A stretch of 64,000 nt of DNA from Cloacibacterium normanense (GTDB lineage: Bacteria > Bacteroidota > Bacteroidia > Flavobacteriales > Weeksellaceae): NCBI RefSeq assembly GCF_002943105.1, contig NZ_PTPZ01000001.1, forward strand, positions 434,001-498,000, in the 5' to 3' direction. This document shows positions 5,854-62,142 of the stretch, piece after piece. A program made the position numbers and the translations under genes. Below the pieces are notes generated by a model. The model was not told where the DNA came from. It saw only the letters and a program-made list of their open reading frames with translations, and searched no databases. Position 1 is the first letter of the stretch. Every line of letters begins with the position of its first letter.

Positions 5854-6486
5854 ATGAAAAAACTTATTATTCTTTTCTTTTCCATCTTTTCATTGTTCTC
5901 TTATTCTCAAGAAGATTTTAAGAAAAAAATAGCGCAAGATGCTTGTAAATGCATTGGAGAAATAAAATTGGAGAAAAAATCTAAAGAAATGATGCAGATG
6001 CAATTAGGCTTGTGCTTTATAAAAGCATCAACTCCTTACAAAGATCAAATCAAAAAAGAATATGGTATTGATTTGTCAAAAGATATTTCGAATGAGTCTA
6101 AAATGGAAGAATTGGGCGAGAAATTAGGTATACTAATGGTTTCAGAATGTGCAGATACTTTTATTAATTTTGTAGACCAGTCTGGTTTTGCTGATGAATA
6201 TGCTCAAGAATCTTCTGCAGAAGTAAATTCAGCGGAATTTATGAATGGTGAAATCACCAAAATAGAAAAAGATACCTTCGTTATTTTTTATTTGAAAGGC
6301 GATAATGGTATTTTAACCAGATTTTATTGGATTTCTAATGTAGATTCTAATATAGAACTCGAAAAGAAATATCAAGATTTAGTGGGTAAAAAAGTAAATA
6401 TCACTTATTACTCTGCTGATATATTTGACCATAAAATAAATGACTACAGAAAAGTCAATATTCTCTCAATGTTGAAAACTGAATAA
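5854..6486 (+). CDS. Secreted protein of unknown function with conserved-looking cysteines
   Basis: This 210-residue protein has a clear signal peptide (MKKLIILFFSIFSLFSYSQ). The mature part starts with a helical, charged region holding Cys in DACKCIGE, GLCF and SECADTF, followed from about residue 120 by a region that looks beta-rich. I do not recognise a named domain. The cysteine spacing in the N-terminal half suggests disulfides in the periplasm. The gene is flanked by the receptor terminator and the dnaN promoter, so it is probably its own unit. Confidence 0.8.
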   Translation: MKKLIILFFSIFSLFSYSQEDFKKKIAQDACKCIGEIKLEKKSKEMMQMQLGLCFIKASTPYKDQIKKEYGIDLSKDISNESKMEELGEKLGILMVSECADTFINFVDQSGFADEYAQESSAEVNSAEFMNGEITKIEKDTFVIFYLKGDNGILTRFYWISNVDSNIELEKKYQDLVGKKVNITYYSADIFDHKINDYRKVNILSMLKTE

Positions 6487-6504
6487 AATTTAATGATTTT
6501 CGAC

Positions 6505-6535
6505 TTTGTCTATTATTATCAAAATTGTATCTTTG
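6505..6535 (+). promoter_or_regulatory. Canonical Bacteroidota promoter for dnaN
   Basis: TTTG at 6505-6508 is followed after 19 bases by TATCTTTG at 6528-6535, an exact match to the TTTG-N19-TAnnTTTG pattern of the primary sigma factor in this phylum. The dnaN ATG is 23 bases further on. Confidence 0.85.
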
Positions 6536-6558
6536 TATACTTAATAATTTTTTAATTT

Positions 6559-7689
6559 ATGAAATTTATAGTTGCAAGTGGCGAATTACAGAAAGCTCTT
6601 AACGTGGTAAGTGGTGTAATTTCTAGTTCGCAGTCAAGACCCATTTTAGAAAATTTTCTTTTTGAATTAGAAAATGAAATTCTAAAAATAACTGCTTCTG
6701 ATGGCGAAACCACACTTATTACTTCTCTTGCTGTAAAATCTGATGATCAAGGCAAAATTGCTGTTCCTGCAAAAATTTTTCAAGATTTAATTAAAACTTT
6801 TGGAGACCAACCGCTTACTTTTTCAGTGAAAGATTCTGAGTCTGGTGAAGGTGGTCTTTTAGAAATTTTAGACGAAAAAGACAATTACGAAGTAGCACTA
6901 GATAATGCAGAAGATTATCCAGAATTACCAGAATTTGACGCATCACAAAAAGTTACGCTAGCTTCTGGAGTTCTTGCAGATGCACTAAGCAATACCTTGT
7001 TTGCAACAAGCAACGATTCTCTCAGACCTGTGATGACGGGAGTTCTTTTCCAATTTACAGAAAAAGAAACCAATTTCGTATCTACAGATTCTCACAGATT
7101 AGTGGTGTACAAAAGAACAGATGTTACCAATAAAGAAGCGGTAGAATTTATCATGCCGAAGAAACCTTTGTCTATTTTCAAAAATATTTTGTCAAATTCT
7201 AATGACGAAGTTACCATCGAGTTTAATGAAAATATGGCGAAATTCACTTTTGGAGAAAATATTTGGATTTGTAGACTAATTGACGGAAAATATCCTAATT
7301 ATTCTGCAGTAATCCCGAAAGAAAATCCGAATGTTTTGACGGTAAACAGAAACTTATTGTTAAGTTCTATCAGAAGAGCAAGTATTTTATCAAACAAATC
7401 TACCAACCAAGTTAGATTTAAGCTTTCTGGCAACGTTCTTCATCTTCATGCAGAAGATACAGAATACGCAAACAAAGCAGATATGAATATTCCTTGTGAT
7501 TATAAAGGTGAAGACATCAACATTGGTTTCAGTTCTAAATTTTTAACAGAAATGTTATCTGTTTTAGGTTCTGAAGATATCACCATGAAAATGTCTCAAC
7601 CAAACCGTCCAGGAATTGTAGAACCAGTAGATGGTCTAGATGAAAACGAACACATCCTTATGCTTTCTATGCCAGTAATTGGAATGTAA
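6559..7689 (+). CDS. dnaN: DNA polymerase III sliding clamp (beta subunit)
   Basis: This 376-residue protein begins MKFIVASGELQKALNVVSG and ends in the clamp C-terminus ILMLSMPVIGM. DnaN forms the ring-shaped homodimer that tethers replicative polymerase to DNA. Length and three-domain layout are normal, with internal landmarks such as NFLFELENE, FVSTDSHRL and ICRLIDGKYPNY. A canonical promoter sits directly upstream and a terminator follows. There is no dnaA or recF beside it, which is common in this phylum. Confidence 0.97.
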   Translation: MKFIVASGELQKALNVVSGVISSSQSRPILENFLFELENEILKITASDGETTLITSLAVKSDDQGKIAVPAKIFQDLIKTFGDQPLTFSVKDSESGEGGLLEILDEKDNYEVALDNAEDYPELPEFDASQKVTLASGVLADALSNTLFATSNDSLRPVMTGVLFQFTEKETNFVSTDSHRLVVYKRTDVTNKEAVEFIMPKKPLSIFKNILSNSNDEVTIEFNENMAKFTFGENIWICRLIDGKYPNYSAVIPKENPNVLTVNRNLLLSSIRRASILSNKSTNQVRFKLSGNVLHLHAEDTEYANKADMNIPCDYKGEDINIGFSSKFLTEMLSVLGSEDITMKMSQPNRPGIVEPVDGLDENEHILMLSMPVIGM

Positions 7690-58554: not shown

Positions 58555-58691
58555 AGTAAGAGAATTATTTTTTTAGACAAAAAAATCTCTAGTTATAAAA
58601 ATCATCCAACAATCAACTTTGGGTGGCTGTTTTTTATTAATTTTACTCAAAACTAATAAGGTCTAAGAAATACCAACTGATTTTTAACGAA

Positions 58692-58762
58692 TAGTACAAT
58701 TTTTGCTGTGGATTGTAAATCTGAGTAAGCTGTCTCAAAGTCAGGAGACTTTGCGCAGCGGG
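58692..58762. repeat. REP-type unit 1 with 62-base flank
   Basis: It starts with a segment shared with 61816-61877 (TAGTACAATTTTTGCT, GGATTGTAAATCT). It ends in the hairpin CAAAGTC-AGGA-GACTTTG (58736-58753), then CGCAGCGGG. Confidence 0.8.
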
Positions 58763-58893
58763 TGGAAGGAAAATATTCCCCCAAATTTTCAAGAGATCAT
58801 TCCAAGAATTTATGTCTCACAAAACCCAACACAATCTTAAATAAAAAATAGCCTTGTGTCAGATTAAATCGTAGCTAATACATGTAAAATCTA

Positions 58894-59310
58894 CTATTTT
58901 TTTAATATCCAATGATTGGTTAAATTAAGATTCCAATTTTTAATCTTACCTATTTTTGCTGAATCTTCTTTTGAAAAAACATAACAATTAAAATACATAA
59001 TACTATCTCCTTTTATTATAAAGCACTTATTTGTGTTTGGAATTTTTTTTAAATAAGTTCCATTTTTAATATTTTTGAAAATCATATCAGAATTCCTAAT
59101 GCTAATCCCATCATCTTTTGAATTAGAATGTATATCTATTGATAAAACACCTCCTTTTATTGGTGTGGCATCATAGATTGTTCCACTAATTTCTTTAGGA
59201 AAGTAATCTGTTTTCATATTATTAATGAAAAAATTTGAATTCAAATAATTATATAAAATTATTCCAATTAATAACAAAGTAAAAGTTATGTATATTCTTG
59301 TTTGTTTCAT
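58894..59310 (-). CDS. Small membrane-anchored orphan protein
   Basis: This 138-residue protein starts at ATG 59310 (MKQTRIYITFTLLLIGIIL), giving one N-terminal membrane helix or signal anchor; the open frame extends to 59373 but with a weaker start. The rest (SGTIYDATPIKGGVLSIDI, NTNKCFIIKGDSIMYFNCY) looks like an extracytoplasmic beta domain. The base composition is more AT-rich than its neighbours. It lies inside the repeat-rich region and may be recently acquired. No family recognised. Confidence 0.65.
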   Translation of the reverse strand: MKQTRIYITFTLLLIGIILYNYLNSNFFINNMKTDYFPKEISGTIYDATPIKGGVLSIDIHSNSKDDGISIRNSDMIFKNIKNGTYLKKIPNTNKCFIIKGDSIMYFNCYVFSKEDSAKIGKIKNWNLNLTNHWILKK

Positions 59311-59460
59311 ATTAATTAACGTACTACGCTTCAAAGAAATTTTGACATTTTGGAATAAATCCTTAATGAGCATTTCAGATTATAAACTTAGTAATTTTTG
59401 TTGAAAATACAACGGTCTTCTTTTTGATATTGAACCACATATAGTGGCTTATCAACTTCA

Positions 59461-59490
59461 CTTTGCAAGCTTTACAACTTTGAGCAATGA
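59461..59490. repeat. Degenerate REP-type unit 2
   Basis: CTTTGCAAGCTTTACAACTT and the following TTGAGCAATGATAAAA match the structure of unit 3 (61031-61070) with changes in the stem. Confidence 0.55.
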
Positions 59491-59622
59491 TAAAAAGCAA
59501 CAAATGAATTTCGGAAATGGAGAAATAAACCAAATACATTATACCCTTTAATTTTAAAATAATACTGTCAAAAATCATTAGAATATCTTCATAAAAACAA
59601 ATTATAAACAAAAATATAATGG

Positions 59623-59630
59623 TAAATTTG
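59623..59630 (+). promoter_or_regulatory. Putative -7 box for pfkA
   Basis: TAAATTTG, 65 bases before the ATG. The -33 region is not convincing. Confidence 0.4.
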
Positions 59631-59695
59631 AAAAATATTTAAAAACAATGATTTCAACAGAAGTGTTGATGAAATAGATAAGAAATTATATTAAA

Positions 59696-60790
59696 ATGAA
59701 AAGAGTATTAGTAGCAACAGGAGGTGGAGATTGCCCAGGATTAAATGCGGTAATGAGAGGGGTGGTAAAAAGAGCATCCCAAGAAAAAGATTGGGAAGTG
59801 GTAGGTAGCATCAATGCGTATGACGGAATTTTAAAAGAACCCACAGAAATTATGGTTTTAGATGATAAAACCGTAGCAGGAATTCATAAAGATGGTGGAA
59901 CAATTATAGGAACTACCAACAAAGGTGGGCCTTTTGCTTGGCCTTACAAAAATAAAGATGGAGTTTGGGAAGCGGTAGACAGATCAGATGAAATGATTCG
60001 CAAACTGCAATATTTAGGCGTAGATGCCGTAATCAGTATTGGTGGTGATGGCTCGCAAAGAATTTCTCAACAATTATACGAAAAAGGACTCAACATTATT
60101 GGTGTTCCAAAAACCATTGATAACGATTTGTCTGCTACAGATTTTACTTTTGGTTTCCAGACTGCTGTACAAATTGCAACAGAAGCGGTAGACAGATTGG
60201 TCACTACTGCTGCAAGCCACAACAGAGTTTTGGTACTGGAAGTAATGGGAAGATATGCCGGTTGGATTGCTCTTCACGCTGCTATTGCAGGTGGTGCAGA
60301 AGTTTGTCTGATTCCAGAAATTCCTTATGACATCGAAAAAGTAGTGAAAAAACTCAACAGCAGATTCAATAAAGGAAAAGGAAATGCCATTGTAGTAATA
60401 GCAGAAGGGGCAATTCCGAAAGGTGGAAGCCTGCTTTCTGAAGTAAGTGATGAGGTAGGATACGAAAATGTAAGATTAGGAGGGGTGGCTCATAAATTGG
60501 TTCACGATTTGAAATCTATTGGTTTTGAGGCAGATATGCGCGAAACGGTTTTAGGACACTTACAAAGAGGAGGAACGCCAACTGCTTATGATAGAATTTT
60601 GGCAACGCAATTTGGGGTAAAAGCATTCGAAATGGTGCTCAACGAAGAATACGGAAAAATGGTAGCTTATCGCCATCCAAATATTATTGCGGTACCATTC
60701 AAAGAAGCGATAGACCGTCCAAATTTTGTAGACCCTAATTGCGATATGGTAAAAACCGCAAAAGGTGTAGGAATTAGCTTTGGGGATTAA
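59696..60790 (+). CDS. pfkA: 6-phosphofructokinase
   Basis: This 364-residue glycolytic enzyme phosphorylates fructose-6-phosphate. It opens MKRVLVATGGGDCPGLNAVM (the first Gly-rich phosphate loop). The donor-site residues are GGDGS (116-120) and PKTIDNDL (138-145), and the sugar-phosphate site is LEVMGRYAGWIA. Gly at the first position is the ATP-type residue. Lys139 replaces the Gly of classical ATP enzymes and is usual in PPi-dependent ones. The mixed signature fits ATP-using 'group III' types, but the donor should be tested. A terminator follows. Confidence 0.94.
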   Translation: MKRVLVATGGGDCPGLNAVMRGVVKRASQEKDWEVVGSINAYDGILKEPTEIMVLDDKTVAGIHKDGGTIIGTTNKGGPFAWPYKNKDGVWEAVDRSDEMIRKLQYLGVDAVISIGGDGSQRISQQLYEKGLNIIGVPKTIDNDLSATDFTFGFQTAVQIATEAVDRLVTTAASHNRVLVLEVMGRYAGWIALHAAIAGGAEVCLIPEIPYDIEKVVKKLNSRFNKGKGNAIVVIAEGAIPKGGSLLSEVSDEVGYENVRLGGVAHKLVHDLKSIGFEADMRETVLGHLQRGGTPTAYDRILATQFGVKAFEMVLNEEYGKMVAYRHPNIIAVPFKEAIDRPNFVDPNCDMVKTAKGVGISFGD

Positions 60791-60817
60791 TTAAGATTTT
60801 ATTTTATTAACTGAAAT

Positions 60818-60862
60818 AAAAGCCAACTTCAAGAAAATGAAGCTGGCTTTAGTTTTTTTAGA
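60818..60862 (+). terminator. Terminator after pfkA
   Basis: AAAGCCAACTTCA with TGAAGCTGGCTTT (one mismatch) is followed by seven T. Confidence 0.8.
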
Positions 60863-60920
60863 GACTATCAAGTAAAGGCATTCTATGGCAAAAACCAAAT
60901 AAAAATATAAAAATTTTAAG

Positions 60921-60994
60921 ATGCAAATTTGTAAGTATTGACAAAAGGAGATTCTCTGCTAATAACAGCAAAAGCTCTGCTTACAATTTTGCAT
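60921..60994. repeat. Imperfect inverted repeat upstream of RAYT gene
   Basis: ATGCAAATTTGTAAG (60921-60935) pairs with CTTACAATTTTGCAT (60980-60994) at 14 of 15 positions; the loop holds an AGGAGA motif. Confidence 0.65.
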
Positions 60995-61030
60995 TTTATA
61001 TTATTTAATACCAAGAGCGTATGTTTGCCT

Positions 61031-61070
61031 TCATCCCCCGCTGCGCAAAGTTTGCAACTTTGAGCAATGC
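61031..61070. repeat. REP-type unit 3 (opposite orientation)
   Basis: CCCCCGCTGCG is followed by the perfect stem CAAAGTT-TGC-AACTTTG (61046-61062) and GAGCAATGC. It is the inverse orientation of units 1 and 4. A shortened TTGAGCAATAATAAAA copy directly precedes the transposase start. Confidence 0.8.
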
Positions 61071-61164
61071 TAAAATATAAAAACTAATAACCAAGAAAAC
61101 TTAAGTAAAAACAATCACACATAGTAGAAGTCAGTTATATTGAGCAATAATAAAAAATAAAAAA

Positions 61165-61740
61165 ATGAAAGAAGGCTATACCATAAAAGACCAAGAAAAA
61201 CCCCACTTTATTACGTGTACAGTAGTAGATTGGGTAGATGTTTTCACAAGAAAGGTTTATAGAGATATAGTAATTTCATCATTAGAATATTGCATAAAAG
61301 AAAAGGGAATGATATTATATGGTTACGTAATAATGAGTAACCATATCCATTTAATTGTTCAATCTAAAGAAGGTAAACTATCAGATTTGATTAGAGATTT
61401 TAAAAAGTTTACCGCAAAAAATATTTTAGAAGCCATACAAACAGAACCTGAAAGTAGAAGAGAATGGACGCTAGATTTATTCAGAAAAGCAACAGAAAGC
61501 CATTTAAGAAATAAGAATTACCAGTTTTGGCAATATGGCAATCATGCTGAAGAAATTTATACATTACGTTTTATGTGGGATAAGTTAAATTACATACACC
61601 TAAATCCTATAAGAGCAGGTATTGTAGAAAAAGCCCAACATTATGTTTATTCATCTGCGAGTAATTATGTAACAGGCAAAGGGTTATTAGATGTTGAATT
61701 GGCGGATAACCCAGTAATTGATACAAGCAAAACAAATTAA
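61165..61740 (+). CDS. REP-associated tyrosine transposase (RAYT, Y1/HUH family)
   Basis: This 191-residue protein belongs to the Y1 transposase superfamily. The HUH metal-binding motif is MSNHIHLIVQ (His60, His62), followed by LSDLIRDFKKFTAKNI and by the family C-terminal pattern FWQYGNHAEEIYTLRFMWDK, KLNYIHLNPIRAG and YSSASNYVTG. RAYTs are single-copy domesticated relatives of IS200/IS605 transposases that bind and move REP palindromes. The expected catalytic Tyr is not evident in the helix after the HUH motif, where Phe82 stands. REP-type hairpins lie on both sides. There is no accessory TnpB. Confidence 0.92.
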   Translation: MKEGYTIKDQEKPHFITCTVVDWVDVFTRKVYRDIVISSLEYCIKEKGMILYGYVIMSNHIHLIVQSKEGKLSDLIRDFKKFTAKNILEAIQTEPESRREWTLDLFRKATESHLRNKNYQFWQYGNHAEEIYTLRFMWDKLNYIHLNPIRAGIVEKAQHYVYSSASNYVTGKGLLDVELADNPVIDTSKTN

Positions 61741-61777
61741 TTTTGTAAATAAAGAATTGATGATGAATAGACTGGCA

Positions 61778-61810
61778 CAAAGTCAGGAGACTTTGCGCAG
61801 CGGGGGCAAC
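61778..61810. repeat. REP-type unit 4
   Basis: Hairpin CAAAGTC-AGGA-GACTTTG (61778-61795) is followed by CGCAGCGGGGG; same orientation as unit 1. Confidence 0.8.
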
Positions 61811-61815
61811 GGGGG

Positions 61816-61878
61816 TAGTATAATTTTTGCTTGGATTGTAAATCTAAATCAGCTGGCACAAAGTCAGTAGATTTTCGC
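61816..61878. repeat. REP-type unit 5 with shared flank
   Basis: It repeats the 58692-58753 flank (TAGTATAATTTTTGCT, GGATTGTAAATCT, AGCTG). The hairpin CAAAGTC-AGTA-GATTTT is degenerate, with GTAG instead of GGAG. Confidence 0.7.
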
Positions 61879-61885
61879 TTATCGT

Positions 61886-62142
61886 GTCACGGATTAGAAA
61901 TCCGCCTTTACTTTGTATTCTATAAAAAGAACTAAATTTATTCAAAGAAAAGCAGAGGTGAACTATGAAATCCGCAAAGCTCATAGGCTTATATGACGCA
62001 TTAGTCCTCTGCATTCTCTTTGATAACCGTTGAATGACTTTAGATAGAATGATAGATTTTCAGATCTAATAAAGGCTTTAGAGACATTCAACACTTTTTG
62101 TTTCACTAAATACAAAGTAAAGGCGGATTTCTAATCCGTGAC
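61886..62142. repeat. 257-base element with perfect 34-bp terminal inverted repeats
   Basis: Left end 61886-61919 and right end 62109-62142 are exact reverse complements over 34 bases (GTCACGGATTAGAAATCCGC and on). Inside are two arms: 61943-61958 with 62006-62022, containing a smaller CTATGA/TCATAG hairpin, and GTTGAATG (62029-62036) with CATTCAAC (62085-62092), containing TAGAT/ATCTA. No reading frame of note. It could be a miniature mobile element or a structured RNA. Confidence 0.8.

Follow-up and report, generated by a model that had tools for sequence, protein, structure and literature searches.

A REP-associated tyrosine transposase gene of Cloacibacterium normanense and its paired outward-pointing hairpins: a probable small insertion sequence-like element of Flavobacteriales

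We analyzed a 64,000-nt stretch of the Cloacibacterium normanense genome (assembly GCF_002943105.1, contig NZ_PTPZ01000001.1, positions 434,001-498,000; hereafter the window), in which a gene for a REP-associated tyrosine transposase (RAYT; REP, repetitive extragenic palindrome) lies among hairpin-forming repeats and pieces of an IS110-family insertion sequence (IS). An earlier interpretation of this DNA (the original prediction) had described the locus as a RAYT embedded in a field of five REP-like hairpins with a shared tail and a central GGAG or GTAG. The features found are collected in Table 1.

The window gene is a genuine RAYT, as had been proposed. Its open reading frame (ORF) scores 95.9 bits with NF047646, the NCBIfam model for RAYTs (cut-off, 80), and 23.5 bits, below the cut-off of 55, with the IS200 model NF033573. 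As in class 2 RAYTs, an HUH motif (NHIH) is combined with a single tyrosine in the context Y-x-x-x-NP (Y143-I-H-L-N-P), and these catalytic residues are conserved across genera. An AlphaFold model of moderate confidence (mean predicted local distance difference test score of 66.8) had the E. coli RAYT-REP complex 4er8 as its top fold match (E = 1.4e-4) and its sole match below 0.001; a profile of 11 sequences, compared with PDB sequences, also gave a single match, again a chain of 4er8 (E = 0.003). Residues W94, Q95, E100, H101 and R104 of the E. coli RAYT are named for GTAG contact in the published residue list. W94 and Q95 are retained as W122 and Q123 in an ungapped stretch of the profile alignment, and in our reading of the alignment E100, H101 and R104 correspond to A128, E129 and Y132, so that three of the five contact residues are replaced. 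Compared with a second copy in the same genome (contig C3, 201 aa), the window RAYT is 10 residues shorter at its C-terminus, where the longer copy has the extra sequence EFWKYSNYDE. Of 95 ORFs examined, 27 have a similar tail; among the remaining 68, 62 are at least 198 aa long.

Three copies of the tail shared by the hairpins, CGCAGCGGG, are present in the window (58754, 61037 on the minus strand, and 61796), compared with 0.03 expected from shuffled sequences. As predicted, hairpins are found on either side of the gene and in either orientation. Folded as single-stranded DNA, three of the five predicted hairpins (58736, 61046 and 61778) form the structure, and the other two (59461 and 61858) are decayed relics that do not; in genome G070 the orthologue of the former relic still has a CCCGCT tail. 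The left-end hairpin has a deviating loop (TGC), and it is one of the 39 hairpins from which the covariance model used in Table 1 was built. GGAG and GTAG were rejected as a tag: GGAG is the loop plus the first stem base, and GTAG was seen solely in the decayed 61858 copy.

Table 1. Features of the RAYT locus and its surroundings (window coordinates)
Feature	Position	Strand	Remarks
Complete IS-like element (left hairpin, RAYT, right hairpin)	61036..61805	+	homology edges; tips CCCCGCT...AGCGGG
RAYT / TnpA-REP gene	61165..61740	+	191 aa; HUH motif NHIH (H60, H62), Y143 in YIHLNP
Left-end hairpin (named 61046), CCCCGCT at 5' foot	61036..61068	+	covariance model E 1.9e-8; fold z -2.7
Right-end hairpin (named 61778), inverted copy of left end	61772..61805	-	covariance model E 6.8e-11; fold z -5.6
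Solo hairpin (named 58736), tex side of hypervariable segment	58730..58763	-	covariance model E 1.1e-7; fold z -4.7
Decayed left-end-like copy (named 59461)	59465..59495	+	87% to left end; unfolded, z +1.3
Decayed right-end-like copy (named 61858)	61832..61875	+	84% to 58709-58752; unfolded, z +0.8
IS110-family stump, cut at left tip of RAYT element	60878..61035	-	99.4% to L149 2799-2956
Opposite IS110 end, inverted orientation	61886..62142	.	bounded by perfect 34-bp inverted repeat

Hairpins located within 500 bp of 17 RAYT genes (16 loci) are strictly oriented: the 22 upstream face one way and the 21 downstream the other, so that all 43 point outward. The unit is therefore hairpin, RAYT and inverted hairpin, a layout already published for RAYTs (PMC2817692). 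The solo hairpin, which lies 2.4 kb upstream of the window RAYT, breaks this rule and points the opposite way. For a broader view, the best 80 of at least 531 confirmed RAYT relatives (66-94% identical) were fetched from Chryseobacterium, Epilithonimonas, Kaistella, Flavobacterium, Myroides, Arenibacter, Aquimarina, Gillisia and other hosts. Together with earlier loci that had been selected for holding the exact motif or the RAYT, they made up 99 loci (including some duplicates), among which an inverted pair of end sequences surrounds the RAYT in 89, with a hairpin on both sides in 88. Over 66 loci, the left and right hairpins of one locus are 0.874 alike, compared with a permuted maximum of 0.703 across loci. 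Hairpin and RAYT distances also correlate (r of 0.25 and 0.28, reached in none of 2000 permutations), and host ancestry, which was left in this comparison, may account for part of the correlation. Flanking inverted palindromes that evolve with the gene, as in class 2 RAYTs, are thus present here by both orientation and within-locus similarity, in line with the proposal of a RAYT with cognate hairpins.

Examination of the hairpins across relatives revealed a class conserved in structure. After 4 reverse-facing or unusual sequences were removed from 59 left hairpins and 2 were added, 57 remained, and a further 18 with a bulge or odd fold were set aside. In the resulting 39, the stem comprises 10 bp, 93.8% of cells are paired, and 7 of the 10 stem pairs show two-sided changes. 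Stem covariation is 0.362 compared with 0.169 in shuffled alignments (none of 500 reached it) and at most 0.160 in slid versions, while a measure of further pair types was not above shuffles in this set (10 vs 12.3). Stem pairing is conserved across genera although the stem sequences differ. For the foot of the hairpin, 162 of 178 hairpins drawn from loci other than the window's own were kept, of which 155 carry GCT; the reference hairpin was in some loci the first identical one, not always the one nearest to the gene. When these were reduced to unique hairpins from named loci, GCT was found at the 5' foot in 116 of 123 (background, 8.8%), lying 10 or 11 nt from the loop in 111 of the 116 and preceded by CCC in 25. 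GCT thus stands where members of the GTAG REP superfamily have GTAG or GTGG, and the likeness to proteobacterial REPs seen by the original prediction is not upheld; as far as the alignment can indicate, the replaced contact residues of the RAYT fit such a non-GTAG tag. In four loci of Flavobacterium and its kin (L181, L207, L194 and L218), some ends are composite, with a second short palindrome near the main hairpin on both sides and in the same order.

Comparison of the window with its relatives showed that homology begins and ends at the hairpin tips (61036 to 61805/61809). A copy that another species of the genus carries at an unrelated site is homologous over 61036-61809 (93.7%), and homology edges fall at hairpin tips in several pairs of loci. 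Both ends could be located for 23 of 25 RAYT genes collected with their flanks. In 25 pairs of full copies with 84-99.9% internal identity (filter, at least 0.84), similarity of the 60-bp flanks, omitting the 2 bases adjoining each tip, was 0.40-0.67 (means of about 0.56 on the left and 0.54 on the right), whereas 500 random pairs of 60-mers scored in the same way gave 0.516 +/- 0.049, with a maximum of 0.68. A BLAST comparison of the 300-bp flanks of 10 of the 23 elements yielded just shared stretches of 31-49 bp, nearly all of them extra hairpin copies. In genome G056, two 690-bp copies at different sites differ by 1 mismatch and their right flanks share nothing (BLAST, 300 bp); the contig C3 copy of the source genome is 98% like them. 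The copies of Chryseobacterium piscicola (G129) and Epilithonimonas tenax (G122) differ at 1 position over the 666 bp that can be compared before a contig ends.

The left tip of the window element sits inside an IS110 transposase gene. The matching segment on contig C14 of the same genome (L149 2799-2956) extends into an intact 334-aa transposase gene (PF01548, PF02371; intact copy at L149 2840-3841). With a slash marking the junction, the intact gene reads CATC/TCTTTT (...CTTCATC/TCTTTTTC) and the window reads CATC/CCCCGCT (...CTTCATC/CCCCGCTG). IS110 pieces flank the window element on both sides. A simple C/T target rule, which fits this junction (CATC/TCTT), fails at a junction in G070 (GATG/TAAA), so no target is claimed. 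Judging from these edges, copies and flanks, the gene and its hairpins appear to move together as one unit, which the original prediction had missed, and we infer that the movement is carried out by the RAYT itself.

Besides full units, shortened and rearranged forms were detected. C. piscicola G129 contains six internally deleted copies, each about 270 bp long, of which five match the sixth at 93.8-97.0%. They keep both hairpins and, from the RAYT, codons 1-10 and the last codons. Locus L095 has tandem right ends with the last ~50 RAYT codons, and L096 has tandem left ends with the first RAYT codons. Between G070 and G080 there is a 455-bp difference, one edge of which lies at a hairpin tip; the RAYT there is whole in G080 and cut in G070. 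Such derivatives are the forms expected from single-end cuts or from loss of inner sequence. In addition, 18 of 66 hairpin loci (L083-L148) hold Rhs-cluster ORFs, compared with about 0.75 expected from Rhs counts, an expectation that is somewhat too low because in some genomes not every candidate was scored. Of 31 ORFs compared with the Rhs core model (29 of the Rhs cluster and 2 others), 27 match it. In L093, an ORF with an EndoU nuclease domain (6434-6832, PF14436) is the second gene after the RAYT unit, and the ORF between them resembles the one following the RAYT on contig C3. No Pfam match was obtained for 6 of 10 proteins scanned, including small genes beside the RAYT copies of contig C3 and of genomes G056 and G089; to label these small genes as immunity genes would be guesswork.

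The exact motif ACTTTGCGCAGCGGG is present in six copies in the whole source genome, at two loci that each contain a copy of this RAYT; as the assembly consists of 19 contigs, some copies are perhaps unassembled. Two hairpins are added by the covariance model, a weaker one on contig C4 (E = 1.7e-4) and, on C11, one that is doubtful (E = 0.014); the hairpins at E < 0.001 number 7. The repeat field was therefore an overstatement, and a genome-wide REP field is rejected. The same genome holds three more genes hit by the RAYT model (L020 on C13, L021 on C7 and L022 on C11), one interrupted by a stop and two below the cut-off, and the covariance model scan of the genome found no hairpin of this class beside them. 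Within the family, ACTTTGCGCAGCGGG occurs at 119 sites in 48 of 197 genomes, and its reversed pattern in none of the 197. When the RAYT branch was defined by an identity of 73% or more across 184 or more residues (17 genomes), the motif was found in 15 of these 17 genomes compared with 33 of 180 lacking a full gene of the branch (p = 9e-9); this test counts exact matches only, and its p-values are optimistic because the genomes are related. If sites within 5 kb of a RAYT are excluded, the numbers become 7 of 17 and 33 of 180 (p = 0.051), with mean copies of 1.35 vs 0.32 (rank test, p = 0.006). The hairpin thus follows the RAYT mainly as part of one unit, and hairpins away from the gene track its presence weakly; the predicted dependence of copy number on the RAYT holds near the gene and fades beyond 5 kb. 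For 33 of the 80 relative loci, the named genome carrying the RAYT was scanned with the model, which found 1-35 hairpins in each of these 33 genomes (median, 9; at most 150 candidates scored per genome). According to PMC2817692, REPs usually number more than 100 per genome, and the abundant dispersed hairpins of a classical REPtron are found neither in the source genome nor in these 33.

Taken together, we consider it probable that window positions 61036-61805 represent one copy of a small IS-like element of Flavobacteriales. In this element, the RAYT lies between two outward-pointing hairpins with (CC)CGCT at the 5' foot. What is visible in the sequences comprises structure-conserved hairpins, paired ends, edges at tips, near-identical copies in differing flanks, the left tip internal to IS110 and the deletion derivatives. 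According to the mechanism we propose, the RAYT would bind the folded single strand of both ends, use its HUH/tyrosine site (H60, H62 and Y143) to cut next to the GCT tag, and join the ends to a new site, much in the manner of IS200/IS605 transposases. Solo hairpins and deletion derivatives would either have stayed behind or have been mobilized in trans, and tandem end copies, like rearrangements that stop at the hairpin, would result from cutting at a single end.

Several observations weigh against a mobile element. Paired ends are unclear in 6 of the 99 loci and 4 more were dropped for insufficient flank, 2 of the 25 RAYT genes have no recognisable left end at the mismatch limit used, and copy number is low (1-35 hairpins in the 33 genomes, with one or two full genes per genome examined). 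The left flanks of the two G056 copies are in part related, since each copy is preceded by an additional left-end hairpin (47 bp, 85% alike). No excision or insertion event was observed. When the G190 and G129 copies were used as queries against 173 genomes, neither revealed a clean empty site; the searches returned only element copies, fragments or repeated flanks. At the window site, homology to six genomes of the same genus is lost where pfkA ends or shortly afterwards. To the right of the window element the IS110 gene is not resumed, which means that the site has been rearranged since. With both flanks rearranged and 10 C-terminal residues missing, the window copy is probably old and perhaps inactive. 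Furthermore, according to Quentin et al. (2018), units of this kind do not seem to transpose, and evidence of mobility is lacking for class 2 genes.

A rival explanation is a classical REPtron, in which an immobile RAYT maintained by the host spreads hairpins (REPs) in trans and the gene itself is inherited or passively carried. A RAYT with inverted flanking hairpins is the published REPtron layout, the motif is associated with the presence of the RAYT, and 33 of 180 genomes without a full gene of the branch still hold it. We nevertheless regard this explanation as unlikely, given full units 84-99.9% identical at different sites with edges at hairpin tips, one of them with its left tip inside an IS110 gene, and given that the hairpins are few (1-35 per genome) and that the exact motif of the source genome stays at RAYT loci. 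Less probable still is a relic displaced within variable islands, whether through homologous recombination or through other mobile elements, with an idle RAYT and hairpins that are recombination scars. The state of the window copy (IS110 fragments around it, two decayed hairpins, a shortened gene), the many hairpin loci in Rhs islands and the extra upstream hairpin of both G056 copies, which could serve recombination, would suit such a relic; homology ending at hairpin tips with flanks near the random level, and catalytic residues and stem pairing conserved across genera, argue against it.

Among described systems, Quentin et al. (2018) report a Bacteroidetes group, subclass 2.6, whose atypical hairpins lack GT[AG]G and have copies elsewhere. 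This subclass, in their view equivalent to group 5 of the RAYTs in Bertels et al. (2017), is characterized by NH[LIV]H, WQ, YIH[QN]NP and a length of about 179 aa. The RAYT described here resembles this subclass in its Bacteroidetes host, NH[LIV]H, WQ, Y-x-x-x-NP and non-GT[AG]G hairpins beside the gene with copies elsewhere, and differs in its tyrosine motif (YIHLNP) and its length (191-201 aa); no tag or consensus hairpin is given for subclass 2.6 in the sections consulted. A Bacteroidetes subclass with atypical hairpins had thus been reported before the original prediction, which had considered a Bacteroidota version a useful addition. The REPtron of E. coli and its GTAG REPs (subclass 2.2) share the RAYT between inverted hairpins, an imperfect stem and, through 4er8, the best structural match, but there the foot carries GTAG instead of GCT and hairpins exceed 100, whereas here at most tens were found in the genomes searched and the unit appears mobile. 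As in IS200/IS605, an HUH-Y1 transposase is accompanied by hairpins at both ends and the unit is found at different sites. Unlike IS200/IS605, the ends here are inverted copies of one hairpin, the catalytic motif is Y-x-x-x-NP rather than Y-x-x-x-Q, the RAYT model is passed and the IS200 model is not, and at 685-869 bp the units are too short to accommodate tnpB. The TIRYT elements of Di Nocera et al. (2013) also have a RAYT-like gene between inverted repeats, some self-complementary; many of them differ in having a GGGGWSAS motif, and most belong to subclass 2.1 with longer proteins carrying a C-terminal extension. In the literature covered, partially and at the level of titles and opening lines, no account of this hairpin class or of a mobile RAYT unit in Bacteroidota was found.

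A RAYT branch that moves whole would contrast with a class described as not moving itself; PMC8266576 presents RAYTs as the first domesticated transposases of bacteria and places them near housekeeping genes in character. Since the branch seems to move whole and has deletion derivatives, it would be a natural system for testing the origin of REPs directly, and likewise the change from an insertion sequence to a resident gene. Its covarying stems and GCT tag also provide a substrate set for biochemistry outside Proteobacteria. As a bolder idea, which we hold only tentatively, this branch could be a living insertion sequence at the step from IS200/IS605 to domesticated RAYTs, in which REP-like hairpins arise by internal deletion and the tips also act as cut points for gene exchange in toxin islands.

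Homology of the tex flank to two relatives stops at 58762 and 58765, that is, at the solo hairpin. The tex-pfkA gap (window 58580-59696) is hypervariable within the genus: the distance from the same hairpin to the relic on the pfkA side is about 702, 2650 and 3095 bp in three genomes, and in a fourth the gap contains two RAYT units.

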